The notes beneath the pieces were generated by a model that was given only the letters and a program-made list of their open reading frames with translations, was not told where the DNA came from and searched no databases. Both the position numbers and the translations under genes were made by a program. From Thioploca ingrica (lineage in GTDB: Bacteria > Pseudomonadota > Gammaproteobacteria > Beggiatoales > Beggiatoaceae), in NCBI GenBank assembly GCA_000828835.1, contig AP014633.1, positions 4,216,001 to 4,280,000 on the forward strand: a stretch of DNA of 64,000 nucleotides. The letters run 5' to 3'. How positions within the stretch are numbered: position 1 is the first letter of the stretch; each line of letters begins with the position of its first letter. Below, in pieces: positions 11,182 to 44,051 of this stretch.

Positions 11182-12654
11182 ATGTACATCGTTATGGTTG
11201 CTTCTGAATGCGCTCCCGTATCTAAAGTTGGTGGCTTGGCTGATGTCGTTTATGGTCTCAGTCGCGAATTAGAAATCCGAGGTAACGATGTAGAAATTAT
11301 TTTACCGAAATATGATTGCATGCGGTATGACCACATTTGGGATCTTCATATTGCCTTTCATGACTTGTGGGTGCCTTGGTGGAATGGTGCTATTCGGTGC
11401 TCAGTTTGGTTTGGTTCCGTCCATGGGCGAAAATGTTTCTTTATTGAACCTCACTCCAATGAAAACTTTTTTAAGCGCAACGCTTTCTATGGTTATCCTG
11501 ACGATGCGATGCGCTTTGCATTCTTTAGTAAAGCCGCATTGGAGTTCATCCTTAAAAGTAACAAACGTCCTGATATTATTCATTGTCATGATTGGCAAAC
11601 GGGGCTAATACCGGTTTTACTGTTTGAAATGTATCAACATCTCGGGTTAGGAAACCAAAGAGTCTGTTATACCATTCACAATTTTCGCTACCAGGGCATT
11701 ACCGGCATGGATATTTTGTCAGCGACTAAGTTAGATCGCCCGGCTTACTATCTCCATTACGACCGTTTGCGTGATAATGTCTATCCCAATGCGTTAAATT
11801 TTATGAAAGGTGGCATTGTGTATTCTAATTTTGTGACGACCGTTTCACCCCAACATGCTTCGGAAGCACATCATACTGATCAAGGGCATGGATTAGGCGA
11901 TACTTTACATATCCATCAACATAAGTTTGGTGGTATTCTCAATGGATTAGATTATGAAGTTTGGAATCCAGAAATTGATCCGTTAATTCCCTATCACTAC
12001 AGCATTAACCAATTAGATAATAAATACGGTAATAAACAAGCTTTGCGTGATAGACTGTTATTACGTCAAGATTTTAAACCGATTATTGCCTATGTGGGTC
12101 GATTGGATGTTCAAAAAGGAGTTCATCTCATTCGTCATGGACTATTTTACTCATTGTGGAATAATGCGCAATTTGTTTTGCTGGGTTCTAGTCCAGAAAC
12201 CCGTATTAATAATGAATTTTGGCGCCTAAAACAAGAACTTAATGATAACCAGGATTGTCATTTAGAAATTGGCTTTAATGAAGAATTAGCGCATTTGATC
12301 TACGCTGGTGCGGATATGATTATTATGCCAAGCCTTTATGAACCTTGTGGCTTAGCTCAAATGATTGCCTTGAGATATGGGACTGTTCCTATTGTTCGAG
12401 CAGTGGGTGGTTTAATCGATACGATCTTTGATCGGGATTATTCTGACAAACCGATTACGGCTCGCAATGGCTATGTTTTTCATGAAGCCGATTACCTTGG
12501 CATCGAACAGACCATGAAACGTGCGATTGGTTTATGGTATGCTTATCCCAATGAATTTCATAAACTGATTATTCAAGGAATGCAGTATAATTACTCATGG
12601 TACTTATCGGGTCAACATTATCTCAATATCTATGAACATATTCGTAATAAATAA
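11182..12654 (+). CDS. glgA: Glycogen (starch) synthase, copy 1
   Basis: GT5 enzyme that extends alpha-1,4-glucan from ADP-glucose; cytosolic. The 490 residues carry the ADP-glucose-binding SKVGGLADV motif (Lys15), IHCHDWQTGL, YVGRLDVQKGV, and the C-terminal EPCGLAQMIALRYGTVPIVRAVGGL motif around residue 386 onward. Length is normal. GGAG lies about seven bases before ATG 11182. The next gene on the same strand, a GH57 enzyme, is about 75 bases away, suggesting a glycogen operon. It is clearly diverged from the second glgA at 16.7 kb (SEAYPLVKTGG there), so this is not a recent duplicate; the two may act on different primers or glucans, which is inference. Confidence 0.93.
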   Translation: MYIVMVASECAPVSKVGGLADVVYGLSRELEIRGNDVEIILPKYDCMRYDHIWDLHIAFHDLWVPWWNGAIRCSVWFGSVHGRKCFFIEPHSNENFFKRNAFYGYPDDAMRFAFFSKAALEFILKSNKRPDIIHCHDWQTGLIPVLLFEMYQHLGLGNQRVCYTIHNFRYQGITGMDILSATKLDRPAYYLHYDRLRDNVYPNALNFMKGGIVYSNFVTTVSPQHASEAHHTDQGHGLGDTLHIHQHKFGGILNGLDYEVWNPEIDPLIPYHYSINQLDNKYGNKQALRDRLLLRQDFKPIIAYVGRLDVQKGVHLIRHGLFYSLWNNAQFVLLGSSPETRINNEFWRLKQELNDNQDCHLEIGFNEELAHLIYAGADMIIMPSLYEPCGLAQMIALRYGTVPIVRAVGGLIDTIFDRDYSDKPITARNGYVFHEADYLGIEQTMKRAIGLWYAYPNEFHKLIIQGMQYNYSWYLSGQHYLNIYEHIRNK

Positions 12655-14747: not shown

Positions 14748-15830
14748 CTAAAGGACTGTTTTGACCACCTGAATAACTACCTGAGCAGTTAATTCTTCTA
14801 AACAACGACTGTGGCTTTGTTTATGATGATAACATCCCTCCTGATGACAAGGCACACAATGACCAACTCCTTGTATTAACCAAACATTGCCAACTCGTTG
14901 AGTACCTTGATGTTGAAATGGAGTTGGTTCAGCCGCATAACCATAAGGCCAAGGTGCCCATTTTAAAGGATTGGTGGGCCCATAGAGTGCGATAGTGGGT
15001 ATCCCCGTGGCAGCGGCTAAATGAGTCACTGCTGTATCCGGACCAATATAAATTTGACTGGCTTTGATCAGTTGAGCAACCTCAGCAAAACTTAATTTTC
15101 CCGCAACACTCATTACAATATCAGGCCTATTTAATAAAACTTGAGAGATATAAGCCTGTTCTGCTTGGCTAGAACCGCCGGTCAGGATGACTCGTAATCC
15201 GCTTTGAGTTAAATAGTGAATTAATTGTTTCCAACCCGTTAATATCCAGCGCTTGTAATGCCACATTGGTAGTAAGTGTAGTACCGCAAAAGTTTGGGTT
15301 TGCCATGAAAAGGGTAATAATTGACTTAACTTTTCATCGACATCATGAGATGACTGAGGCAGAACTAAACTATAATGACGTGGAATAGCGAGTAAATCAG
15401 CCAATCTTAAGTTTTGAATGACCGTGTGGGTTTGCTCATTATCTAATTCTGTCCAAGCCTGAACCAGCCAACGTTTCCAACTATCTTGCCACCGTGGTGG
15501 TGGTACAACCGCTATTCGTATTGGTGCCGCTAATAAGGCATAAATAATCGGCCGATCACCAGCCAGCGTCGAAATCGCTAAGTCATAGCGGCGAAAAATT
15601 TGGGTTAATAATCGCTTATATTGGCCAAGATTGGGATGTTCAGCGACGGCAATCAAAGTATTGTAATCAAGATTACCTTCTAACATTCCCCCTTTATTAT
15701 CATAAACCAGAACATCTATTATGGCTTGGGGATAAGCTTGACGTAAAGAACGCAACAAAGGGGTGACCAACAAAACATCACCAATTTGTCTGGTGGCAAT
15801 CAGTAAAATTCGCTGGGCCGGGTATTTCAT
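14748..15830 (-). CDS. Lipopolysaccharide heptosyltransferase III-like glycosyltransferase (GT9)
   Basis: Transfers an ADP-activated heptose (or related sugar) to the LPS core at the inner face of the inner membrane. 360 residues; RILLIATRQIGDVLLVTPLLRSLR at the N-terminus (key residues: the IGDVLL loop) and YIGPDTAVTHLAAATGIPTIALYGPTNP near residue 263 (key residues GPDT-H) are diagnostic for GT9. The pattern resembles the RfaQ/WaaQ 'heptosyltransferase III' group more than WaaC or WaaF, but the acceptor cannot be read from sequence. A cysteine/histidine-rich tail (CVPCHQEGCYHHK) near the C-terminus could bind metal. It sits alone on the minus strand between glycogen genes. Confidence 0.82.
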   Translation of the reverse strand: MKYPAQRILLIATRQIGDVLLVTPLLRSLRQAYPQAIIDVLVYDNKGGMLEGNLDYNTLIAVAEHPNLGQYKRLLTQIFRRYDLAISTLAGDRPIIYALLAAPIRIAVVPPPRWQDSWKRWLVQAWTELDNEQTHTVIQNLRLADLLAIPRHYSLVLPQSSHDVDEKLSQLLPFSWQTQTFAVLHLLPMWHYKRWILTGWKQLIHYLTQSGLRVILTGGSSQAEQAYISQVLLNRPDIVMSVAGKLSFAEVAQLIKASQIYIGPDTAVTHLAAATGIPTIALYGPTNPLKWAPWPYGYAAEPTPFQHQGTQRVGNVWLIQGVGHCVPCHQEGCYHHKQSHSRCLEELTAQVVIQVVKTVL

Positions 15831-15999
15831 AATATTATTATATTATAATCCGAGGCTTGCATTATTCCTGCTGGCAGATTAAACTCCTTTTCGAGTTTTA
15901 CCGGTCTCGCTGTAGCTAATAACTTCAACGAATTGGCTAACTCATTTTGCTTCTTCAAGGACTTTAAGAGCGTTTTACAAAAAAGGATGGAAAATACCA

Positions 16000-16683
16000 A
16001 TGAGACATTTTAAAAAATCGATAGGTTTGGTTATCATCTGGGGTGCTCTAGCGGCTTTACCACCGACAACGAGTGCGGACGGTATGTATGGCATGTCTCC
16101 TATGTATGGTGGTATGTATGGAATGGTTCCCATGTATGGTAGGACGGATTCTATCTATGCTTTGTATTCAATGTATGGCCCTTATAGTATGCAAGGAAAT
16201 TCGATGTATACTATAAGTGGTATGTATCCTATGGAAGGTTACTTAGACTATCTCAGAAAAATGATGTATTCCATGTACGGTATGTATGGCATGTTACCCA
16301 GCATGTTAGGCATGGGCGGGATGCAAGGCATGATGCCCATGCAAGGTGGGATGCAAGGGATGATGCCCATACCAATCAGCATGTTACCCCTGTACGGGAT
16401 GGCCCCCATGTATGGTAGTATGTACGGGATGGCACCCATTTATGCTGGTATGTACGGGATGGCACCGATGTATGGCCAATTAGATTCTGTTCATTACTTG
16501 CTGTCAATGTATGGAATGTTGCCCCTTAACCCATCTGCTCAAAAAGCTTACACCATTGCCGGAGCTTACCCCATGACCGGTTACTCAGATTCCCTTAATA
16601 AGATGATGTATTCTATGTATGGTATGTATGGCATGTTTCCTATCTATAGTATGTCTGCTATGTATAGTGGCATGATGAGGTAA
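16000..16683 (+). CDS. Secreted Met-Tyr-Gly (MYG) repeat protein
   Basis: I do not recognise the family. 227 residues: a signal peptide (about 1-27, ending TSADG), then a low-complexity body built of MYGM, PMYG and GMQG units. By hand count about 46 residues are Met, roughly one in five, with Tyr, Gly, Pro and Ser making up most of the rest; there is no Cys, and charged residues are rare. The body is two tandem units of about 90 residues, each ending with a matching KMMYSMYGMYGM segment, joined by a GMQGMMPMQ linker. Start supported by AAAAAAGGA upstream of ATG 16000. Neighbours (GT9, glgA) give no clear role. Met-rich secreted proteins can bind Cu(I)/Ag(I) or act as oxidant sinks or structural material; all of that is inference. 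Confidence 0.75.
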   Translation: MRHFKKSIGLVIIWGALAALPPTTSADGMYGMSPMYGGMYGMVPMYGRTDSIYALYSMYGPYSMQGNSMYTISGMYPMEGYLDYLRKMMYSMYGMYGMLPSMLGMGGMQGMMPMQGGMQGMMPIPISMLPLYGMAPMYGSMYGMAPIYAGMYGMAPMYGQLDSVHYLLSMYGMLPLNPSAQKAYTIAGAYPMTGYSDSLNKMMYSMYGMYGMFPIYSMSAMYSGMMR

Positions 16684-16740: not shown

Positions 16741-18201
16741 TCAATGATTTAACAACTTTTGATAAAGAGATACATATTCCTGGGCGCTTTTACGCCAGCT
16801 AAAATCGCGATTCATCCCATTGATTTGTAGCATACGCCATACGGTTTTATCACGAAAAGTGCGTAGTGCTCGTTGGATGCAATATAACAATTCACGTGGC
16901 TCCTCATCTTCAAAGACAAAACCGGTGGCCGTTTGATTTTCAATATTTTCTGGGGTTGCATCTATCACCGTATCCGCTAACCCCCCGGTACGTCTGACTA
17001 TCGGAATCGTACCATAACGCATACTATACATTTGATTTAAGCCACAGGGTTCAAATTTGGAAGGCATCAGAAAAATATTCGCTCCCGCTTCAATCTGATG
17101 CGCCAATTCTTCATTATAACCAAAATAAACACTCATATTCTCAGCATAACTATCAGCTAATTGCTGGAGATGCTTTTCTAAATTTTTATCACCACTCCCT
17201 AAGATAACTAATTGAGCACCTTTTTTGATAATTTCGGGAATAATGGGCACCAACAAATCCAGACCTTTTTGTTCAGTCAGACGCGTAATGAGACCCATTA
17301 ACGGAAGTTGCTTTTGGGATGATAAACCTAATTTAGTTCGTAACAATTGAGTATTACGTGCTTTACCCGCCAAATTTTCACTGTTGAAATGACTGACTAA
17401 ATAGCTATCAGTTTGTGGATTCCACGCGTCAGTATCGATCCCATTCAAGATTCCAGTCAATTGATGTTGACGTTGAGCCAGCAATCCCTCTAAACCATAC
17501 CCATAACCCGGGGTTTGAATATTTTGAGCATAAGTTGGGCTAACCGTGGTAATCCAATCCGCGTAATACAATCCCGCTTTCAAAAAGGAAACTTGACCAT
17601 GATATTCTAATCCAAACATATTAAAACTTTCCGGGGGTAAGCCGAATAATCCAACGACCTCTGGACCAAAAACACCCTGATAAGCTATGTTATGAATACT
17701 CATCAAAGTGAGCGCACGTGGATTGGAATTAAAGGTCAGAAATGCCGGTACTAAACCGGTTTGCCAATCATTACAATGAATAATTTGAGGTTTAAAAGAT
17801 AAGTTATGTGTACCAAATAAAGCGGCTACTTTAGATAGCATCCCAAAACGTAACGCATTATCTGACCAATCATGGCCAAATTCGTCTTGATAAGGGCCAC
17901 CCCGACGATCATAAAGACGAGAATATTCGACCACATAAACTGGAGTAACCCCACCTGGCATAATCCCAGCTAACAAACGAATGGGTTCTCGTAAAGGATA
18001 TAACCGAATGTCCTCATGCACCTCAATCAAGGAAAGTTGTTTCAATACCTCAGGATAACCCGGTAATAATAACCGAATATCAACTTCCAGGTCTCGTAAC
18101 GCATTAGGTAAGGCATAACTCACATCACCTAAACCGCCAGTTTTAACCAATGGATAAGCTTCCGAGGCCACAAAGAGTACACGCAACTTTGACCCATTCA
18201 T
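16741..18201 (-). CDS. glgA: Glycogen (starch) synthase, copy 2
   Basis: Second GT5 ADP-glucose:glucan transferase in the window. The 486 residues carry VKTGGLGDVSYAL (Lys20), IIHCNDWQTGLVPAF, ITRLTEQKGLDLL, and EPCGLNQMYSMRYGTIPIVRRTGGLADTV in the C-terminal domain; this pattern is the classical bacterial GlgA one. GGAAAT precedes the ATG at 18201. It is transcribed opposite to glgA copy 1 and converges on the MYG gene. Its differences from copy 1 run through the whole length, arguing for separate origins or old divergence. Confidence 0.93.
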   Translation of the reverse strand: MNGSKLRVLFVASEAYPLVKTGGLGDVSYALPNALRDLEVDIRLLLPGYPEVLKQLSLIEVHEDIRLYPLREPIRLLAGIMPGGVTPVYVVEYSRLYDRRGGPYQDEFGHDWSDNALRFGMLSKVAALFGTHNLSFKPQIIHCNDWQTGLVPAFLTFNSNPRALTLMSIHNIAYQGVFGPEVVGLFGLPPESFNMFGLEYHGQVSFLKAGLYYADWITTVSPTYAQNIQTPGYGYGLEGLLAQRQHQLTGILNGIDTDAWNPQTDSYLVSHFNSENLAGKARNTQLLRTKLGLSSQKQLPLMGLITRLTEQKGLDLLVPIIPEIIKKGAQLVILGSGDKNLEKHLQQLADSYAENMSVYFGYNEELAHQIEAGANIFLMPSKFEPCGLNQMYSMRYGTIPIVRRTGGLADTVIDATPENIENQTATGFVFEDEEPRELLYCIQRALRTFRDKTVWRMLQINGMNRDFSWRKSAQEYVSLYQKLLNH

Positions 18202-20185: not shown

Positions 20186-23100
20186 TTAAGGCTCAATGTT
20201 AACCACAATCCCTTTAGCAGGGGTAACCATCGTGCCATCTGTTAAGCGATAACCGAAATACAGAGTCACCTTACCCGTGACTGGAAACACCCCACGATAC
20301 AAACCCACTTCCTGTTTCGACTTGATAACGGTTGACCCCAACGCAACCAAGTGCTCATCTTTTCTATCCCACGGTTGCACTTCACGCTGATTGTCTAGCA
20401 TATAATGAGATTGCACTTGAGTTGAATCTAGCGGTTGATAGTCAGCATAAACGACAACCTCTGCCTCTTTTCCTAATACTTCTTTAGTAGCGCATAATAC
20501 CCCTCTAACTTCGACTTCAGCGGCTAACTTCACCGTAACCTGCGGCTCAAATAAACCACCGTTAACCGTTGCTCCACCAGCAGCTTGATATTGCATCGAA
20601 TGTGTAGTCACTTCCAGTAAAGGCAGTTCAGTATCACAAGTCAGTGTCTGCTCTGTTGTGAGCAAACGCGGATCTTGACTTGGATCTTGAAATTGTACTC
20701 CCCCACCTAAAGCAACATCGGCTGCTAATTTCACCCCTTTACCAATAATGACGTGTTCAATACGACTTCCATCAATAATTTCTAGTTGTTCCAGTACCGC
20801 CGGCGCTGATGTCTCCCCGGTGATTTTACCCGCAAGTTTACCACCAGTGATTTGCGTACCAGCCGCTAAATTAACATCTTGGAAATAGCCACCAATCTGA
20901 CTTGTATTCGTGATTTGACCCGCTAAAATCCCACCAACGACTTGTGCACCCACGAAGTTGAAGTCCTTTAGGGTTCCATGATTCACAATATAGCCAGTTA
21001 AGCGCCCACCGGTTAATATGGTATCGGGTTGAATCGTGACTTGGGAAACTAAACCTTGATTATCAATTACACCGGATAAATTACCACCGGCAATACTCGC
21101 TGCTGCACCCAGCGTAGCATTAGTAAGCGTGTGCTCGCGATTATCACATAACCCATTAATCTGACCATTGTCTGGACAAAGGTGAGTCGCTGGAACTGAG
21201 ATAACGACTGTCTCCGGTAATTTAACGATTTCTTGCTCTGCCGTGTTTGATTGTGAAGCGACAGTAACGAGTATAGTTGCCACAGAGGTAACACTCAGAT
21301 CCTCTTGCGAAGTAGCTGTCAGCGTAATTAAATTGCTGGCCCCCCGTTCATTCGGTAAGGTCACGGTAAAGGATAATTCTTGAATACCTAATTCTTTCAC
21401 TGCCACCGTAGGCGATATTTCACTCAAAGCCCAGCCTTTTTGGTTATCTACTTTTAATGTATAAGTATCTGCTTTCGGCCCATTGTTAGCGATTACTAGC
21501 GGAACTGATAGAGTTGTTCCTGGTTCACCCGAGTATTTTCCTGCACCGAGTAAAGCAACGTCGTAAAGAATCTTACTCGGACCAACTACGATATTCTTTG
21601 CAGTGATAATTTGATGCAAATTGGCTCCGGTATCTAACAAAATTTCATCGGCGAAAAGATTAACTTGACCACCGGCTTCCAATATAGAGGCTTTATTGCC
21701 ACGTAAATCGATAATGCTGTCTTTGCCGACTGCTAAGGTGATATCGCCAGTCGCTTGGATCGCTGCTTGAGATAAATTACTCAAATCAAGAACCCAATCG
21801 TCGCCACCAAATAGAGTTATGTTACCCCCATTGATTCTAGTGCTGGCTCCCGATAATGAAATGACACTGGGGTCGCTAGAACTGTTACCCGGGATTCCAT
21901 TCGTTTGACAGTGAGTACTACCTTTCCCAGCCCCGAAGTAACCACCAGACAAGTCAATTCTTTTACTGGCATTAAATCTTAGATTTCCACCATTACCACC
22001 CTGAGTTTGTTCAGTATTACAATTGCCACCATCGCCGGCGGCTACGATGACTTCACCTTGAGTGTAAAGAGAATAATCAGCAATTAAAGTCAGATTACCC
22101 CCTTTTCCAGATCGGCCAGATGAAATTTGAGTAACGTTAGTGCTTTCGTTAGTAACACTTCCATATTGATTAGAAATGTTAGTGAGTTCATTAAGAATGT
22201 CAAGACATCTTTGAGGAATGTTCTTTAGTTTGTTAATAACGTTCTCTGTTTCATTAGAAACGCTACCACCATCGCCTGATTTGATCATACCGCAATTCGT
22301 TTCGGTTAAAGAATCAATGATAGTGGCACCATAAATGTTGATATTGCCACCATAAGCATGATGTAACTTACCATCGCCGCCGTTACCAGCCTTGATAATG
22401 CCTTCATTGCGAAATAAATTTTCTGGATCATGGCCAACGGATAAGATTAGGCTGGCACCGGGTTGAGCACAATTCTCGGTGCCAATGGTATTCCAATAGT
22501 CACCTTTACATGTTGTTGCCTCTTGAGCTTCATTGGCCCCAGCTTGGCCTCGAATAGTTCCTTTATTTTCTAGATAGCTCTTAGCATGGAGAGTGAGAGA
22601 AGTTCCTTGACGATTTGGACTCTCTAATATTCCTGCTTCCTCGATACATAAAGCGTTTACGATCGCATATTCAGCGCCGGTGATAGTGTGACCGCTTTTA
22701 ATTTTGACATTATCAGTTTCAGTGGGTACTGATTTTTTGCTCCAAGTATCTGGATTATTCCAATTACCGTTGCCTAATGATTCATTGGTAATACCAGTAT
22801 CACAAGCTTCTGGTGTTTTTGCTTTGCCGCTCAGTGGAATTTTTTTTGCGTCGGGTACATTGGAAGAGGTGATAGTGAGATCGGCTTGTTTATCCCCGGC
22901 TGTTCGCGGAATAAATTGCGCCATAAAATCACACTGTTCTTGTTCATTGGGTAAGAGAACATTTTTGTAATCACAACTCCAACTATCAAAAGTAAAGTCG
23001 AGCGGATGGGTACCGGTGATAGCAAAAGCAGGTGATTTTAAGCTAACATTGCCAGAATTGGTTAGCGTAAAAGTTTGCGTGTTGGTGTTATAACCTAAAC

Positions 23101-25288
23101 TGACTTCACCGAAGTTATGTTCTGGGGGAGTTACTTTGATTTCTGGCGAACCGGAAGCAACCGCATTCGCTTTAATTGAGATCAGTGGCGTCTCCATATT
23201 CGGATCAAAAACCAATTTAAAAGCAAGGTCGTCCTTAACTCCTGCTAACTTGGGTGTAAAAGTTAAAATAAATTGGCAGGAAGAATAATGATGAGCATTC
23301 CACTCACCTTCGTAACAGTCATTTTGAGGATCGCCGGTAAAGGCAAATTCATTTTTGGAAGTGCCAACGAATTCGATGCCTTTAACTTTGAAATCACCAC
23401 AATCTTGAGAGCGAGTACTGAGGATGATGGTAGTCTGGTCATTAACGACTGCCGTACCAAAGTCAAATTTATTCGGATCGGGTTTAATCCCAAAACTACC
23501 GCCGGCTGGACATTTAAATAGTAAAAAGGTTTGCGTTTTTGCCCAGTCAGGATCTTTATTACCGGGAGCTTCGAGGAAAGCAAGGACTTCGGGTTTAGCC
23601 AGCGTGTTGAGATAATTATTACTGAGGTCGAGACAGGATTGACATAACTCCGGTTTATCTGGACATTGCGAGCAAATGTTAGTTAATTTAGTGAATGAAA
23701 GTGGAATATCGCCGCTCAGTTGGTTATTGTTTAAATAAAGATTTCCTAAGCTAGTTGGGAGAGTTGGAATTGGCCCGCTCAGTTGGTTATTGTTTAAATA
23801 AAGATTATATAAGCTAGTTGGAAGAATCGGAATAGAACCGCTCAGTTGGTTATTATTTAAATAAAGATACCCTAAACTGGTTGGAAGATTGGGAATAGAA
23901 CCGGTTAATTGGTTAGAAGATAGATCGAGAGACCATAATTGACTCAATGCAGTTAAATCTGGAATAGTTCCAGTAAGCTGATTGTTCGAGAGACTAAGAT
24001 TTTGTAATCCAGTGACTTTACTAAAGTCAGGAATAGATCCATGCAGTTGATTGCCGCCTAAAGAAAGGTTTGTTAAATTAGGTGGAAAATAGGCCGAATT
24101 AATCGTTCCAGTTAATTGTGTTCCATTTAGATCAAGACTGTTTAAATTGCTTAAAGTACTTAAATTAGGAATCGGTTGATTTAATGGAGTTCCATTTAGG
24201 CTAAGGTTTTGCAAACTAAGCGGAAATAACGAAGCATCGATAATACCTTTGAGTTGAGGATTATAACTTAGATCGAGATAATGTAGATTGTTAAGTGCGC
24301 TAAAACTCGGGATGTTTCCTTCGAGTGGGTTGCTTCCTAAACTAAGTGATTGTAGTGAAGTTGGAAAAAACGATACGTTAATCGATCCACTTAATTGAGC
24401 ATTCCCTAAATAAAGATAAGTTAAGTGAGTTAAGGAACTTAAATTAGGAATGGGTTGATTAAATGGATTACCATCTAAGTAGAGAGTGGTCAAACTTTTT
24501 GGAAAATAGTTAGCATCAATAGTCCCACTTAATTGAGTATAGCCTAGATCGAGATCAGTTAAATTAATTAAGCTACTTAAATCAGAAAGTGGTTGGTTTA
24601 GAGGAGTTCCATATAAGCTCAATAATTTTAAACTGGGTGGAAAATATAAACCATCGATAGGGCCAGTTAAAGAATTACCGCCTAAATTAAGATGTGTTAA
24701 CTTAGTGAGTTTCTCTTTGAAATTAGGAATAGGGCCTTCTAGCTGATTATATTGTAGATAGAGTTCTTGCAAACTAGAGGGTAGAGATGAAATGTTAATA
24801 GTGCCGCTGAATTTGTTACCACTAAGATCAAGAAAGGTTAGCTGGGTTAAAGCACTTAAATTAGGTAGAGTTCCGGTCAATTGACTATTATTCCAACCAC
24901 CACATCTGAGCCCACAGTTGGTTCCTAAATCGAGCGATTGCAAAAAAGTTAAAGCACTTAAATCGGGAAGAGTGCCTACTAAGTTAACATATTCTCGATT
25001 AATTTGAGTAACATGTTCATTTTCACAAGTAATCCCGGCCCATTGGCAAGGTTCGTTAGTAACGTTCCAATTATTGGTTTGGCTATCATTCCAATTGGGA
25101 CCATCAGTATTTTTATACAGTGCCACTAAGGTGTTACATTCAGGTGGGGAAATTTGATTGACTTGCTTACAGTCAGTTGCGGCTAGTGCGGGAGGGATTC
25201 CTAAACAAACTAATAAGAATAATCCTTGAGTCAAATTAGAAACGAGAGCTAGCCAGTTGATTAGATTGTTTTTAAGCCTACCTTTCAT
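20186..25288 (-). CDS. Giant secreted protein A: LRR / ASH / beta-helix / shared C-terminal module
   Basis: 1700 residues; function unknown, presumably surface or extracellular. Order seen: signal peptide (1-36); a plant-type LRR cap with Cys (NWNDSQTNNWNVTNEPCQWAGITC); about twenty leucine-rich repeats of the LDLSxNxLxGxIP type (about 80-560); two ASPM-SPD2-Hydin-like beta-sandwiches (about 600-825, e.g. HNFGEVSLGYNTNTQTFTL); a segment WNNPDTWSKKSVPTETDNV typical of secreted beta-helix proteins; a Gly/Asn-rich region (about 860-1230); an NEW3-like domain (about 1240-1340); and a C-terminal module of GG-L-x-G-x-I repeats (about 1370-1530) plus a final beta domain. The last half is homologous to proteins B and C. 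No LPxTG, T9SS or autotransporter barrel is visible, so the export route beyond Sec is open. Confidence 0.8.
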   Translation of the reverse strand: MKGRLKNNLINWLALVSNLTQGLFLLVCLGIPPALAATDCKQVNQISPPECNTLVALYKNTDGPNWNDSQTNNWNVTNEPCQWAGITCENEHVTQINREYVNLVGTLPDLSALTFLQSLDLGTNCGLRCGGWNNSQLTGTLPNLSALTQLTFLDLSGNKFSGTINISSLPSSLQELYLQYNQLEGPIPNFKEKLTKLTHLNLGGNSLTGPIDGLYFPPSLKLLSLYGTPLNQPLSDLSSLINLTDLDLGYTQLSGTIDANYFPKSLTTLYLDGNPFNQPIPNLSSLTHLTYLYLGNAQLSGSINVSFFPTSLQSLSLGSNPLEGNIPSFSALNNLHYLDLSYNPQLKGIIDASLFPLSLQNLSLNGTPLNQPIPNLSTLSNLNSLDLNGTQLTGTINSAYFPPNLTNLSLGGNQLHGSIPDFSKVTGLQNLSLSNNQLTGTIPDLTALSQLWSLDLSSNQLTGSIPNLPTSLGYLYLNNNQLSGSIPILPTSLYNLYLNNNQLSGPIPTLPTSLGNLYLNNNQLSGDIPLSFTKLTNICSQCPDKPELCQSCLDLSNNYLNTLAKPEVLAFLEAPGNKDPDWAKTQTFLLFKCPAGGSFGIKPDPNKFDFGTAVVNDQTTIILSTRSQDCGDFKVKGIEFVGTSKNEFAFTGDPQNDCYEGEWNAHHYSSCQFILTFTPKLAGVKDDLAFKLVFDPNMETPLISIKANAVASGSPEIKVTPPEHNFGEVSLGYNTNTQTFTLTNSGNVSLKSPAFAITGTHPLDFTFDSWSCDYKNVLLPNEQEQCDFMAQFIPRTAGDKQADLTITSSNVPDAKKIPLSGKAKTPEACDTGITNESLGNGNWNNPDTWSKKSVPTETDNVKIKSGHTITGAEYAIVNALCIEEAGILESPNRQGTSLTLHAKSYLENKGTIRGQAGANEAQEATTCKGDYWNTIGTENCAQPGASLILSVGHDPENLFRNEGIIKAGNGGDGKLHHAYGGNINIYGATIIDSLTETNCGMIKSGDGGSVSNETENVINKLKNIPQRCLDILNELTNISNQYGSVTNESTNVTQISSGRSGKGGNLTLIADYSLYTQGEVIVAAGDGGNCNTEQTQGGNGGNLRFNASKRIDLSGGYFGAGKGSTHCQTNGIPGNSSSDPSVISLSGASTRINGGNITLFGGDDWVLDLSNLSQAAIQATGDITLAVGKDSIIDLRGNKASILEAGGQVNLFADEILLDTGANLHQIITAKNIVVGPSKILYDVALLGAGKYSGEPGTTLSVPLVIANNGPKADTYTLKVDNQKGWALSEISPTVAVKELGIQELSFTVTLPNERGASNLITLTATSQEDLSVTSVATILVTVASQSNTAEQEIVKLPETVVISVPATHLCPDNGQINGLCDNREHTLTNATLGAAASIAGGNLSGVIDNQGLVSQVTIQPDTILTGGRLTGYIVNHGTLKDFNFVGAQVVGGILAGQITNTSQIGGYFQDVNLAAGTQITGGKLAGKITGETSAPAVLEQLEIIDGSRIEHVIIGKGVKLAADVALGGGVQFQDPSQDPRLLTTEQTLTCDTELPLLEVTTHSMQYQAAGGATVNGGLFEPQVTVKLAAEVEVRGVLCATKEVLGKEAEVVVYADYQPLDSTQVQSHYMLDNQREVQPWDRKDEHLVALGSTVIKSKQEVGLYRGVFPVTGKVTLYFGYRLTDGTMVTPAKGIVVNIEP

Positions 25289-39872: not shown

Positions 39873-42800
39873 TTATTTAGAACCGAGCCTGGGATCATCA
39901 CTGGGATTATTAAATTGCACGCCTTCACCGAAAGTAACCGTCGCTGCTAATTCAACTCCCTCGCCAATCGTGACATATTCCAAATAACTACCGGCTTGGA
40001 TTGCTAAATCTTCCAATAAAGCCGGGGCTTGAGCGTCGCCGCTGATTTCACCACCGAGTTGACCGCCACTGAGATAAGTTCCTGCAGCCAACTGAACATC
40101 ATGGAAATAACCACCCACTTGACTGGTGTTGAAAATATCTCCCGCCAGTGTGCCACCCACAATCGCCGCACCCCGGAATTCAAAATCCGCCATCTCGCCG
40201 TGATTGATGATATAACCGGTGACGATCCCGCCGGTTAAGTGGCTTTGTGGTTCGAGGGTCAAATTGGATACCCAGCCCTGATTCGTCAGAGTACCCATTA
40301 GCATCCCGTTAGCAATCATGCCATTGGGTCCCACGATCAAATCAGTCAGTGTCTGCCCATGTGCGTTACAAACCCAATCAACTAAGCCGCTAGCGTAGCA
40401 GGGTGGGGTTTCTGGCGGTAGCGAGGAGAAGAAATTAGCGGCTGGGGTATCTAGGCTAGCGTTTTCAGTAGCTAGCGGTAATTCCACCGGACTGTCCGCT
40501 GCCGTTTCACTGGCGGTGGTAGCCGGTTGGATTTGATTTCCAACGACTGTCACCACGATCTCCGTACTGGAAGTGATGGTCGGTTCAGCAGATGAGGTAG
40601 CCGTAATCGTGATAGCGTCTTTTTCACCTATCATCGCTGGAAAAGTGAGGTTAAACATGAGCGTTTCATGTCCAAGTCCCGCTACGGAGAGAGTAGCCGG
40701 TAAAGTTGGTAAATTCCAACCCGCCGAGTCGCTAACGGTAAGATTGTAGGTATCTGCTTCGGGACCGCCATTAATGAGTTCCAATTCAATGGGCAAAGTG
40801 GCTTGGGGTTCGCCGGTAAGTTGTTTGGGGCCAGTCAGAATGACTAAGTGAAGGATCTTACTGGGGTTAGTCACGATTCCCCTTTGGGCCGCTACTAAAT
40901 TTTCTAAAGAAATTCCATTATCTAACAACAGGTTGTCGGTGAAAACCGTGAACTGCCCCCCAGCTTGGAAAACTTGGCTGGTGTTGCCTCTTAAGTCAAT
41001 GGTACTGCCCTTTCCCACTGCCAGGGTAATGTTGCCAGGGGTTGAAATCGCTCCCGGACTGAGATTGCGCAGATCCAGAATCCAATCATCACCGCCAAAG
41101 ATAAAGATATCTTCTTGGGCTTGGAGTCGAGTATTTGGACCCATGGTAATTGTGCTGGGTTCATAATATAAGTCTTTCCCTGAATTTGCTGAAGATACGT
41201 CATTGATAGCCGGAGATAGTTGAATCAAATCGCCACCGGTTCCTGGAGTGGGGATGGCTAAGGGAATATTGGTATCATCACTGACACAGGTAACCGTATA
41301 CCATCTACCATCAAATTCCTTGGCGATTAAATGCGCACCATTTGTGCACCACACATAAGCATTTCCTCCAGTACCACTCGAAGTAGTCGCTGAAGCAGCG
41401 GTATTAAGTGACTGTTGCGCCTGCAATATCGTTTTACCACCCTTTCCACCCCAAACCGGTTGGTTTCCATATACGGGTATAGCAAGTATAAAACTAGTGT
41501 GATCCCCAGAAGGATCTGTCCTATCCCACGCTGGTTGGCGAGCATTACCTTCTCCACCATGGCCAGCTGAGATGATGCCCGCTTGAGTGATATTGTTAGC
41601 ATAGATTTCTACGGAGCCGCCATCACCGGCTTTCAAGTAGCCATTACCTCCAGCACCGGCTTGGATTATGCCTAGGTGGTAAAGTTGGGTACCGGCATTG
41701 AGCTTGATATCGCTGCCATTGTCTCCTTCGTTTATCCCGTTAGTTGGAAGAGTTGATTTAGCGGTGTTACTCTGCCCGTAATCAACATTGGCCCATTGTG
41801 AACCTTGGCTAGGAGTGGTGGGAGTTGATTGAGTGGTGCTGCTCTTCCCGTTATCACCATTGGCCCATTGTGAACCTTGGCTAGGAGTGGTAGGAGTTGA
41901 TTTAGCGGTGCTACTCTTCCCGTCATCACCATTGGCCCATTGGGGTAAATATTGGCTAGGAGTGGTGGAAGTTGATTTAGCGGTGGGAGTTGATTTAGCG
42001 GTGCTGCTCTTCCCGTCTTTGCCAAGAATACGACCTTCATTGTAGATAAATCCATCCGTCGGATTCACTTGGATAGATAACAACTCACCGGCAGTTTCTT
42101 GGATCGTGCCATAATTGCAAAGTGCTTTGATTTTGATAGGCATTGAACGGCCGACGAGGTTTAGTGTGTCCGTATTTTTCACCACGGCATTTTCGTGAGA
42201 TTGACCGTCCCAAGTGATGGCATTGGCACAAGCGGTGAGAATGGCGTTATCAATGGGTGGTCGCTCCAAAGGTAATTGGAAGAAAGTGACTTGACAAGTT
42301 TGATTGTTCTCTTGATTTCTCATTATCAGCACTTGCCCTTGGTTATTGCAATCCCCACTCCATTCTTGAAATAGCCAGCCTTTCTCTGGTATCGCTGTCA
42401 AGGTGACGTTGGTATTGAGGTCGAAAAGGGATTGACATTGAGCGCCACAATCAATTCCAACGGGAGCACTGCTGACTTGTCCTTGACCAACGGTGGTTAT
42501 TATCAAGGGAGAAGGTAATAGCTCATCACCAGATAATTGGAAGAAAAGAGCTTGACACGCCTTACTTTCCTTCATCACGACGGTTCCCATTATATCGCAA
42601 TCCCCACTCCACCCCAGAAACTGCCAGCCTTTCTCTGGTATCGCTGTCAAGGTGACGTTGGTATTGAGGTCGAAAAGGGATTGACATTGAGCGCCACAAT
42701 CAATTCCAACGGGAGCACTGCTGACTTGTCCTTGACCAACGGTGATTATTCTTAAGGAAGGAGGGAAGGGTTTGAAAGTAGCTTGACAGGCTTGGTTTTC

Positions 42801-44051
42801 CTTCATCACGACGGTTCCCATTTTATCGCAATCCCCACTCCACTCCTGAAACTGCCAGCCTTTCTCTGGTATCGCCGTCAAGGTGATGTTCGTATTGATG
42901 TCGAACAGGGATTGACATTGGTCACCACAATGAATTCCAACGGGAGCACTGCTGACTTGTCCTTGACCAACGGTGGTTATTGTCAAGGGAAAACGTAATA
43001 ACTCACCGGTCAATTGGGAATCGGCCGCTGCTGTGGGAATCAGGTTGATCAAAGTGGTCGTCTCAACGGGATTGGAACATTCTGATTGGCTGCTATCGCA
43101 ATCCATATCACTGGTTGTGAAATTCAGGGTGGGGGAGAGCGGCTCATCTATGGGTAATGGTAGCGGCGTTGAAGGTGGAGAAGTGCTACCACAAGCATAA
43201 GGAGTCTGGTTCGTCCAGGCTAGATTTTTACTATTCAGAAAAGCTATGAGTGTGGGGTCAGAAGCAGTTAAATGATTATTTCTTAAGCTTAATTCAGTTA
43301 ATAACTTTAGATTAACTAGTGAGGAAGGAATCTCTCCGCAAAGTTGGTTGTAAGAGAGATAAAGTTGCTGCAATTGGGTTAAGGCACTCAAATCGGGGAT
43401 AGCACCCGTTAGCTGATTACCATACAACCAAAGGGCCTGCAATTGGGTTAAGGCACTCAAATTGGGGATAGGACCCGTGAGCTGATTACTCTGCAGAAGA
43501 AGATGCTGCAACTGAGTCAAAGCACTCAAGTCAGGGATAGCACCCGTGAGTTGATTACCATACAACCAAAGATAATGCAACTGAGTCAAAGCACTCAAAT
43601 CGGGGATAGGACCAGCTAAGTTATGTTGATATCTACTGATTGTGATAATATGCTCATCACTACAGAATATTCCTGTCCAACTACAGGGCGTATTCGTCAC
43701 ATTCCAATTATTGGTAGCACTATCAGACCAACCAGCGCCATTAGTGCTGTTATAAAATGCAATTAGCGTTTCACATTCAGCTTGAGGAATCTCTGTCACC
43801 GCAGTGCAATCCGTCGCTGCCTGAACTGAAGATAATCCCATCAACGTAAAGAATAACAATCTTTGGCCAAATGCAGAAATGGAAGCAAGCCAAGCGAATA
43901 ACCGCTTACCAGGTGAATATTTGGAAATGAAGGAATGAATTGAAATACTGTCTTTTTCCCATCGAGAAGGAAAATTGAAATGCCACTGTCGAAGGGGGCA
44001 AGCCAGGAACAGCGGAGATAACCAACCCATATCTCTATTTGGTGCTAACAT
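39873..44051 (-). CDS. Giant secreted protein B: LRR / InlB-type B-repeats / beta-helix / truncated shared C-terminus
   Basis: 1392 residues, function unknown. The signal segment is set back (about 55-78, ending SSVQAATDC), so the true start may be a later codon than ATG 44051. Then an LRR cap (NWNVTNTPCSWTGIFC), about five plant-type LRRs (LQHLLLQSNQLTGPIPNLSAL), three near-identical 75-80 residue repeats like the InlB B-repeat (VGQGQVSSAPVGIDCGAQC...WSGDCD) at about 364-590, a low-complexity PTTPSQGSQWANGD tract of 24-residue units (about 680-763), a Gly-rich beta-helix region, an NEW3-like domain (about 1067-1167) and the GGIVTGYI-type repeats shared with proteins A and C. It stops at QFNNPSDDPRLGSK, where A continues for about 150 residues. 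Confidence 0.78.
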   Translation of the reverse strand: MLAPNRDMGWLSPLFLACPLRQWHFNFPSRWEKDSISIHSFISKYSPGKRLFAWLASISAFGQRLLFFTLMGLSSVQAATDCTAVTEIPQAECETLIAFYNSTNGAGWSDSATNNWNVTNTPCSWTGIFCSDEHIITISRYQHNLAGPIPDLSALTQLHYLWLYGNQLTGAIPDLSALTQLQHLLLQSNQLTGPIPNLSALTQLQALWLYGNQLTGAIPDLSALTQLQQLYLSYNQLCGEIPSSLVNLKLLTELSLRNNHLTASDPTLIAFLNSKNLAWTNQTPYACGSTSPPSTPLPLPIDEPLSPTLNFTTSDMDCDSSQSECSNPVETTTLINLIPTAAADSQLTGELLRFPLTITTVGQGQVSSAPVGIHCGDQCQSLFDINTNITLTAIPEKGWQFQEWSGDCDKMGTVVMKENQACQATFKPFPPSLRIITVGQGQVSSAPVGIDCGAQCQSLFDLNTNVTLTAIPEKGWQFLGWSGDCDIMGTVVMKESKACQALFFQLSGDELLPSPLIITTVGQGQVSSAPVGIDCGAQCQSLFDLNTNVTLTAIPEKGWLFQEWSGDCNNQGQVLIMRNQENNQTCQVTFFQLPLERPPIDNAILTACANAITWDGQSHENAVVKNTDTLNLVGRSMPIKIKALCNYGTIQETAGELLSIQVNPTDGFIYNEGRILGKDGKSSTAKSTPTAKSTSTTPSQYLPQWANGDDGKSSTAKSTPTTPSQGSQWANGDNGKSSTTQSTPTTPSQGSQWANVDYGQSNTAKSTLPTNGINEGDNGSDIKLNAGTQLYHLGIIQAGAGGNGYLKAGDGGSVEIYANNITQAGIISAGHGGEGNARQPAWDRTDPSGDHTSFILAIPVYGNQPVWGGKGGKTILQAQQSLNTAASATTSSGTGGNAYVWCTNGAHLIAKEFDGRWYTVTCVSDDTNIPLAIPTPGTGGDLIQLSPAINDVSSANSGKDLYYEPSTITMGPNTRLQAQEDIFIFGGDDWILDLRNLSPGAISTPGNITLAVGKGSTIDLRGNTSQVFQAGGQFTVFTDNLLLDNGISLENLVAAQRGIVTNPSKILHLVILTGPKQLTGEPQATLPIELELINGGPEADTYNLTVSDSAGWNLPTLPATLSVAGLGHETLMFNLTFPAMIGEKDAITITATSSAEPTITSSTEIVVTVVGNQIQPATTASETAADSPVELPLATENASLDTPAANFFSSLPPETPPCYASGLVDWVCNAHGQTLTDLIVGPNGMIANGMLMGTLTNQGWVSNLTLEPQSHLTGGIVTGYIINHGEMADFEFRGAAIVGGTLAGDIFNTSQVGGYFHDVQLAAGTYLSGGQLGGEISGDAQAPALLEDLAIQAGSYLEYVTIGEGVELAATVTFGEGVQFNNPSDDPRLGSK
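41755..42010 (-). repeat. 72-bp in-frame tandem repeats within giant protein B
   Basis: Units begin with GCCCATTGTGAACC at 41791 and 41863, exactly 72 bases (24 codons) apart, with partial units on both sides. They encode the PTTPSQGSQWANGD-GKSSTAKS low-complexity tract. Copies differ at a few sites, mainly in the Lys/Thr codons. Confidence 0.85.
42374..43000 (-). repeat. Tandem B-repeat coding units within giant protein B
   Basis: Three units of about 230-250 bases. A 122-base block is identical between 42374-42495 and 42623-42744, synonymous sites included; the third unit (about 42860-42985) carries several changes. This indicates recent duplication or gene conversion. Confidence 0.85.

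Follow-up and report, generated by a model that had tools for sequence, protein, structure and literature searches.

Does the open reading frame at positions 16000 to 16683 of a 64,000-nucleotide stretch of the Thioploca ingrica genome (contig AP014633.1; hereafter, the window) encode a real protein, and what could an exported chain so rich in Met, Tyr and Gly do for this bacterium? The features of the locus are as follows.

16000 to 16683, plus strand: Met/Tyr/Gly-rich exported protein, the subject of this work (227-residue ORF; composition, orthologue with dN/dS)
16000 to 16077, plus strand: signal peptide, residues 1-26 (MRHFKKSIGLVIIWGALAALPPTTSA), cleavage site placed by eye
16084 to 16335, plus strand: first repeat half, residues 29-112, from local alignment between the halves
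16420 to 16677, plus strand: second repeat half, residues 141-226, from the same alignment
15983 to 15987, plus strand: ribosome-binding-site-like AAGGA, from the sequence
14748 to 15830, minus strand: divergent neighbor, heptosyltransferase-like by eye, also kept at the orthologue locus
16741 to 18201, minus strand: convergent neighbor, glycogen-synthase (glgA)-like by eye, also kept at the orthologue locus

The ORF opens with an ATG and an N-terminus that, judged by eye, is of the signal-peptide type. Residues 28-227 comprise 45 Met out of 200 (22.5%), 31 Gly, 31 Tyr and no Cys, in agreement with an initial annotation that had described an exported, Cys-free protein with about one Met in five residues. 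Its characterization as made almost wholly of Met-Tyr-Gly repeats was overstated, given that these three residues add up to 107 of the 200 and the remainder is mostly Ser, Pro, Leu and Ala. The two tandem halves that it placed behind the signal peptide are well supported: local alignment of residues 29-112 against 141-226 yields a BLOSUM62 score of 263, against a maximum of 100 (mean 60.7, sd 10.3) when the second half is shuffled 1000 times. Defining Met-rich ORFs as those containing 10 Met and 8 Gly within 50 residues, the window gene is the sole such ORF in the 64-kb window and none was detected in fifteen 20-kb segments (300 kb) of the same genome, indicating that its composition is not due to chance.

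The protein matches no family in Pfam or NCBIfam, so that the absence of a described family holds for the curated libraries searched. Its best match in the PDB has an E-value of just 0.51, a tblastn search of plasmids returned no match, and its AlphaFold model (mean pLDDT 32.8) is too poor for a fold search. Scans of the window region for sigma-70 promoters and terminators yielded nothing beyond what is seen in shuffled sequences. Elsewhere in the window, two glycogen-synthase-like genes, named by eye, flank the gene (11182-12654, plus strand, and 16741-18201, minus strand), a large leucine-rich-repeat-like exported protein, also by eye, is encoded at 20186-25288 on the minus strand, and further long tandem repeats occur at 41750-43613.

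When 84,980 species genomes were scanned, a single locus closely related to the window protein was identified, in a Thioploca sp. MAG that is probably the same genome as the genus-mate (G040) in our set of 42 family genomes; in the other genomes of that set, the window protein query yielded no match better than E 0.02. Gene order around the orthologue is preserved, with heptosyltransferase-like and glgA-like neighbors (names by eye). The two proteins are identical at 193 of 215 aligned residues, and their length difference is due to repeat indels. The orthologue retains 40 of 42 Met, 29 of 29 Tyr, 27 of 28 Gly and 15 of 15 Pro, and just 6 of 11 Ala. Comparison of the two genes gives a dS of 0.516, a dN of 0.047 and an omega of 0.090, which falls between the values of the two neighboring genes (0.126 and 0.056). 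From this comparison we conclude that the window ORF is a real gene under purifying selection. The concern that it might be an expanded repeat without homologs and with a non-coding codon pattern is thus dispelled by an orthologue under purifying selection and by the wider set of Met-repeat proteins described below.

The Thioploca genus-mate also encodes an exported Met-repeat protein of 172 residues (L008). Used as a query, L008 matches 11 of the 42 family genomes at E ≤ 0.1 and reveals, besides the window gene, three further Met-repeat genes in the T. ingrica genome, encoding proteins of 319 (L029), 279 (L030, mature part 35% Met) and 253 residues (L031). The search for other such repeat proteins proposed in the initial annotation was therefore productive, with three more in the same genome and a wider set in relatives. 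Since low complexity renders E-values unsafe, signal peptides were compared instead. The window signal peptide scores 41-70 against those of 8 of 27 Met-repeat proteins, including scores of 57-70 against L073 and the operon members L104, L051 and L156, compared to a best score of 38 against 344 background signal peptides. Likeness reaches p ≤ 0.05 for 12 of the 27; the other 15, the majority of which belong to different families, score no better than background, and their relationship hence rests on composition and gene position. Judged by these sequence comparisons, the window protein is tied to the MYG-type members of the Beggiatoaceae and to a few others, whereas a link with GMSGM-type chains in other families is suggested by composition and gene position. 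We regard it as a stand-alone, divergent relative of the exported Met-repeat proteins.

Met content across 14 tabulated members ranges from 18.5 to 36%, and repeat length differs between species. In 12 of the 14, between 71 and 99% of the steps from one Met to the next span three residues; at 48%, the window protein presents the lowest fraction, the other 13 spanning 57-99%. Tyr varies from 0 to about 16% (at most 2% in 7 of the 14), and each chain carries 0-8 His and 0-2 Cys. The set as a whole thus keeps Met and not Tyr, whereas the window protein and its orthologue keep both. In GMSGM-type members, Gly likewise recurs at every third residue. A GMSGM query matches 26 of the 42 Beggiatoaceae genomes, but many of its rows are composition-driven, some with several internal stops, and they were therefore left out of co-occurrence counts; among 11 further loci scanned after this query, four (L162, L165, L106 and L107) contain a Met-rich ORF by our criterion.

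Several observations on these proteins merit separate mention. A motif of approximate form GWYERxxxGQIVLYP / YFKITPQGQIFFYP, possibly a docking site, recurs in Met-repeat proteins L031, L035, L040 and L165 and in GMSGM-type L148, L152, L153 and L155, and is absent from the window protein. Met-rich exported proteins without a dmsA gene nearby are encoded at L029, L037, L042, L043 and L162. At L037 7288-7752, L042 7724-8185, L043 7324-7874 and L162 2660-4518, exported Met-rich repeats of acidic or mixed character (MKGMEG, MEGMSGMDN, MAGMEG, MSSMDGM) are encoded at a distance from any dmsA observed. L044 (6129-7103) encodes a protein that by eye resembles FKBP-type isomerases and carries an exported, Met-rich head (MAGMDTMSGMTSMEG). 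A tandem run of three small genes of the same kind, TerB-like by eye, is found at L029 (6073-7388, T. ingrica) and L046 (5472-6781), adjoining a Met-repeat gene of the L029 type with its QRP partner but no dmsA; the one TerB-like protein searched gave a weak EF-hand_6 match below the cut-off.

Two of the additional T. ingrica genes sit directly upstream of dmsA (L030/L104 and L031/L105). L030, like L033, precedes genes for a multiheme cytochrome, a Tat-signal molybdopterin enzyme, a 4Fe-4S protein and a TorD-like chaperone, and L031 precedes the second molybdoenzyme copy of the genome. The general operon order is Met-repeat protein, five-heme cytochrome c and DmsA-like molybdoenzyme, usually with DmsB and a TorD-like chaperone and often with a small secreted 'QRPxxAP' protein. 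The DmsA-like gene was detected at E ≤ 1e-60 in 16 of the 42 family genomes (22 loci). At E ≤ 1e-180, 16 of the 369 genomes in a class sample encode it, 13 of them outside the family, representing 10 families, and in a phylum sample of 398 genomes it is present in five, T. ingrica included.

Across the 39 dmsA loci examined from the family, class and phylum searches, 28 are of the five-heme type, defined by a gene with at least four CxxCH motifs just upstream of dmsA. A Met-repeat gene lies upstream on the same strand in 26 of these 28, at 902-2231 bp from the dmsA match and in 13 families; in the two misses (L084 and L087) the contig ends 1576 and 1025 bp upstream. Contigs frequently break within Met-repeat genes. 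Among the 11 loci without a five-heme gene, a Met-repeat gene is present by our criterion in two and absent in six despite at least 2.1 kb of upstream sequence; the remaining three have less than 1 kb, at most 60 bp in two of them, and one of the three (L102) shows a weaker Met-rich gene. Over 492 kb of dmsA neighborhoods (the first 35 loci), 24 Met-rich ORFs share the strand of dmsA and lie no more than 2 kb upstream of it, and two lie elsewhere. Of nine canonical S/N-oxide reductase loci (TIGR00509, E ≤ 1e-200), examined with up to 1.5 kb of flanking sequence (less where some contigs end), none has a Met-repeat gene. These results establish the linkage between Met-repeat and DmsA-like genes. 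The window gene itself lies outside any dmsA operon: the dmsA matches of its genome are at 3.94 and 0.32 Mb, and the window at 4.22-4.28 Mb.

The QRP partner is a small secreted protein with 23 invariant columns across 12 sequences and no Pfam family, whose AlphaFold model (pLDDT 59.1) is too poor for a fold search. Counted independently of the dmsA neighborhoods, and with three tblastn rows spanning a stop, it occurs in 12 of 13 Beggiatoaceae genomes with a five-heme-type locus and in none of the 29 others (Fisher p 1.2e-9). Met-repeat matches to L008 at E ≤ 1e-6 follow the same partition, with 6 of 13 and 0 of 29 genomes, respectively. In 12 of 21 upstream regions the best sigma-54-like site reaches p ≤ 0.05 (200 mononucleotide shuffles each), counting two rows that are the same locus (L033 and L086) and, among the 21, three regions from one operon (L153). 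The site lies 24 bp from the start in L149 and 430 bp away in L152, and is significant neither in the window upstream region (p ~0.38) nor in that of the orthologue (p 0.06). This is supportive of sigma-54-dependent operons, not proof of them. A divergent kinase-like gene of 600-670 residues was identified by eye in several dmsA loci, and Pfam matches confirm that L153 encodes a histidine kinase and L092 a sigma-54 activator, so that regulation of the operon looks two-component.

For both T. ingrica DmsA-like proteins the best NCBIfam match is TIGR02166 (dmsA_ynfE), with 582.9 and 608.8 bits, below the cut-off of 777.7; the DmsB-like protein, at 191.7 bits, likewise falls below its cut-off of 214.1. 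These scores make any substrate assignment putative. The BisC, TorA and PhsA models score lower than TIGR02166, and for the one protein of the two searched against the PDB the best match is a DMSO reductase. All 35 aligned enzymes contain WSVPSY, the Ser of which aligns with the Ser column of 1EU1, a position that we take to be Ser147 of the Rhodobacter sphaeroides enzyme, the Mo ligand. A Ser at the Mo-ligand column fits S/N-oxide reductases and argues against an enzyme that reduces polysulfide or thiosulfate. PMC7402097 describes the SYGW motif of DorA as required for sulfoxide reduction; all 35 DmsA-like enzymes have [SA]YAG instead, which tells against a simple analogy.

Together, these observations lead us to propose that the Met-repeat set, including the window protein, constitutes a disordered, exported and rechargeable thioether sink in the cell envelope, a reading that we consider about evenly balanced between right and wrong. 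Since its relatives are repeatedly encoded beside a sulfoxide-reductase-like enzyme, the window protein is probably an oxidant absorber rather than an isolated curiosity. Export would bring a flexible polypeptide bearing tens of Met side chains to the periplasm or sheath, where oxidants such as peroxide, hypohalous acids and nitrogen oxides would convert Met to Met sulfoxide. The Tat-exported DmsA-like molybdoenzyme would then re-reduce the Met sulfoxide, which would thus be its substrate within the Met-repeat chains, with electrons arriving via the five-heme cytochrome c and the DmsB-type Fe-S subunit. The oxidant sink was one of the roles suggested in the initial annotation, and it is favored by the many relatives located upstream of a gene for a DmsA-like S/N-oxide reductase, although the window copy itself lies outside such operons. 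We infer that this copy depends in trans on the enzymes from the two T. ingrica dmsA loci; given its location and the least regular Met spacing of the set, its own role is the weakest step of the argument and an extrapolation. That the T. ingrica genome yields no MsrB (PF01641) match is in keeping with the thioether sink. Counting against it, the genome encodes a catalase, whereas 38 of the 42 family genomes have no PF00199 match at E ≤ 1e-20, suggesting that this species is not the most peroxide-exposed member of the family.

Such a cycle would work like that of MrpX and YedYZ, with a different reductase. The sigF/nrsF-yedYZ-mrpX system, described in PMC4623255 for Azospira and perchlorate islands, provides a precedent for Met cycling. 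As described there, it too pairs the gene for an exported Met-rich chain with an adjacent one for a molybdenum-dependent reductase (YedYZ, or MsrPQ), and Met/Met sulfoxide cycling has been proposed or shown. The reductase is YedY there, and here a DmsA-like protein with DmsB and a five-heme cytochrome; relative to MrpX, compared by its description, the proteins reported here have long Met-x-x repeats and two-component-looking regulation, and the neighbors of the window gene are other than yedYZ and sigF/nrsF. Reductases of the Mo-bisPGD S/N-oxide type are able to reduce Met sulfoxide: DorA (PMC7402097) and Campylobacter concisus BisA (PMC10653797) reduce the protein-bound form, and Escherichia coli DmsABC reduces Met sulfoxide, with dmsA induced by hypochlorite (PMC12096835). 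The passages cited here describe no dedicated Met-repeat partner for these enzymes, in line with its absence from the nine canonical loci. In Bacillus cereus, exported Met also acts as an antioxidant, but there it resides in ordinary exoproteins (PMC5526929) and is recycled by the thiol-type MsrAB. In a more far-reaching reading that we consider unlikely, the sulfoxide/thioether couple bound in the Met-repeat proteins would act as a solid-phase redox store with a dedicated reductase, charged with oxidant under oxygen or nitrate and otherwise respired back through the cytochrome and the DmsA-like enzyme; this would amount to a polymeric electron acceptor conserved across many proteobacterial families.

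Among the competing explanations, the one that survives best, while still unlikely, is that a different oxide or oxyanion is the respiratory substrate of the DmsA-like enzyme and that reactive by-products consume the Met-repeat protein, any re-reduction being performed by another enzyme. According to PMC4623255, the DMSO-reductase-family enzyme of perchlorate islands, part of a pathway that leaks hypochlorite, has a Met-rich peptide and YedYZ encoded next to it, and the enzyme studied here matches DMSO/selenate reductase models below the cut-off and lacks SYGW. Against this stand the absence of any chlorite dismutase- or peroxidase-like partner in the operons, as judged by eye, and the lack of an MsrB (PF01641) match in the T. 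ingrica genome (reported 100% complete), which contrasts with its presence in 10 of 14 control genomes.

The initial annotation had also raised Cu/Ag binding and a filament or sheath material, both of which receive little support from genomic context and from the variability of Tyr, apart from one structural hint in the collagen match of L153. Sequestration of envelope Cu(I) or Ag(I) by thioether arrays of the MxxM type strikes us as improbable. MxxM is the commonest Met spacing and fits known Cu(I) motifs, and a copper response of E. coli Mo-enzyme genes is reported in PMC12096835. However, the linked enzyme is a molybdoenzyme, and among the first 25 of 107 families listed for 60 neighboring proteins from 10 loci (operon members left out) there is no copper family; the scarcity of His and Cys fits Cu(I) binding and a pure oxidant sink equally well.

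A shade less probable still is a structural material, be it a filament, a sheath or a collagen-like or polyglycine-II-like fiber in which Met would be sticky or cross-linking. Thioploca filaments share a common sheath, species differ in repeat length, and GMSGM-type chains have the Gly at each third residue of collagen-like PF01391 proteins, with L153 scoring 86.1 bits against a Pfam collagen cut-off of 27.2. This match may nevertheless reflect composition alone. The GMSGM-type repeats inspected by eye are Pro-poor and the window protein has no Pfam match; Tyr varies across the set and a structural role leaves the dmsA linkage unexplained. Least probable of all is that the protein coats sulfur globules or handles polysulfide, in which case stored sulfur would be the substrate of the molybdoenzyme: an exported low-complexity protein in a sulfur bacterium does recall the sulfur globule proteins, a 15-kDa example of which is noted for Beggiatoa in PMC7356093, but, going by their descriptions, these are set apart by the Met-repeat composition and dmsA linkage found here, and the Ser at the Mo-ligand column and a PhsA score far below that of the DmsA model (214.5 versus 582.9 bits) speak for an S/N-oxide reductase.

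Returning to the rechargeable thioether sink, MrpX provides a known example of this kind of mechanism, and what would be new is the type of reductase, the repeat design and the conserved operon; among the matches listed in the open-access literature, we found no description of a Met-repeat/DmsA operon. If correct, this reading would assign a function to low-complexity proteins without a specific family among the Pfam and NCBIfam models scanned, and would identify a protein as the natural substrate for a widespread branch of the DMSO reductase family. It would also mean that envelope Met cycling evolved around at least two types of reductase, and that it is used by free-living sulfur bacteria, beyond perchlorate reducers and host-associated bacteria.
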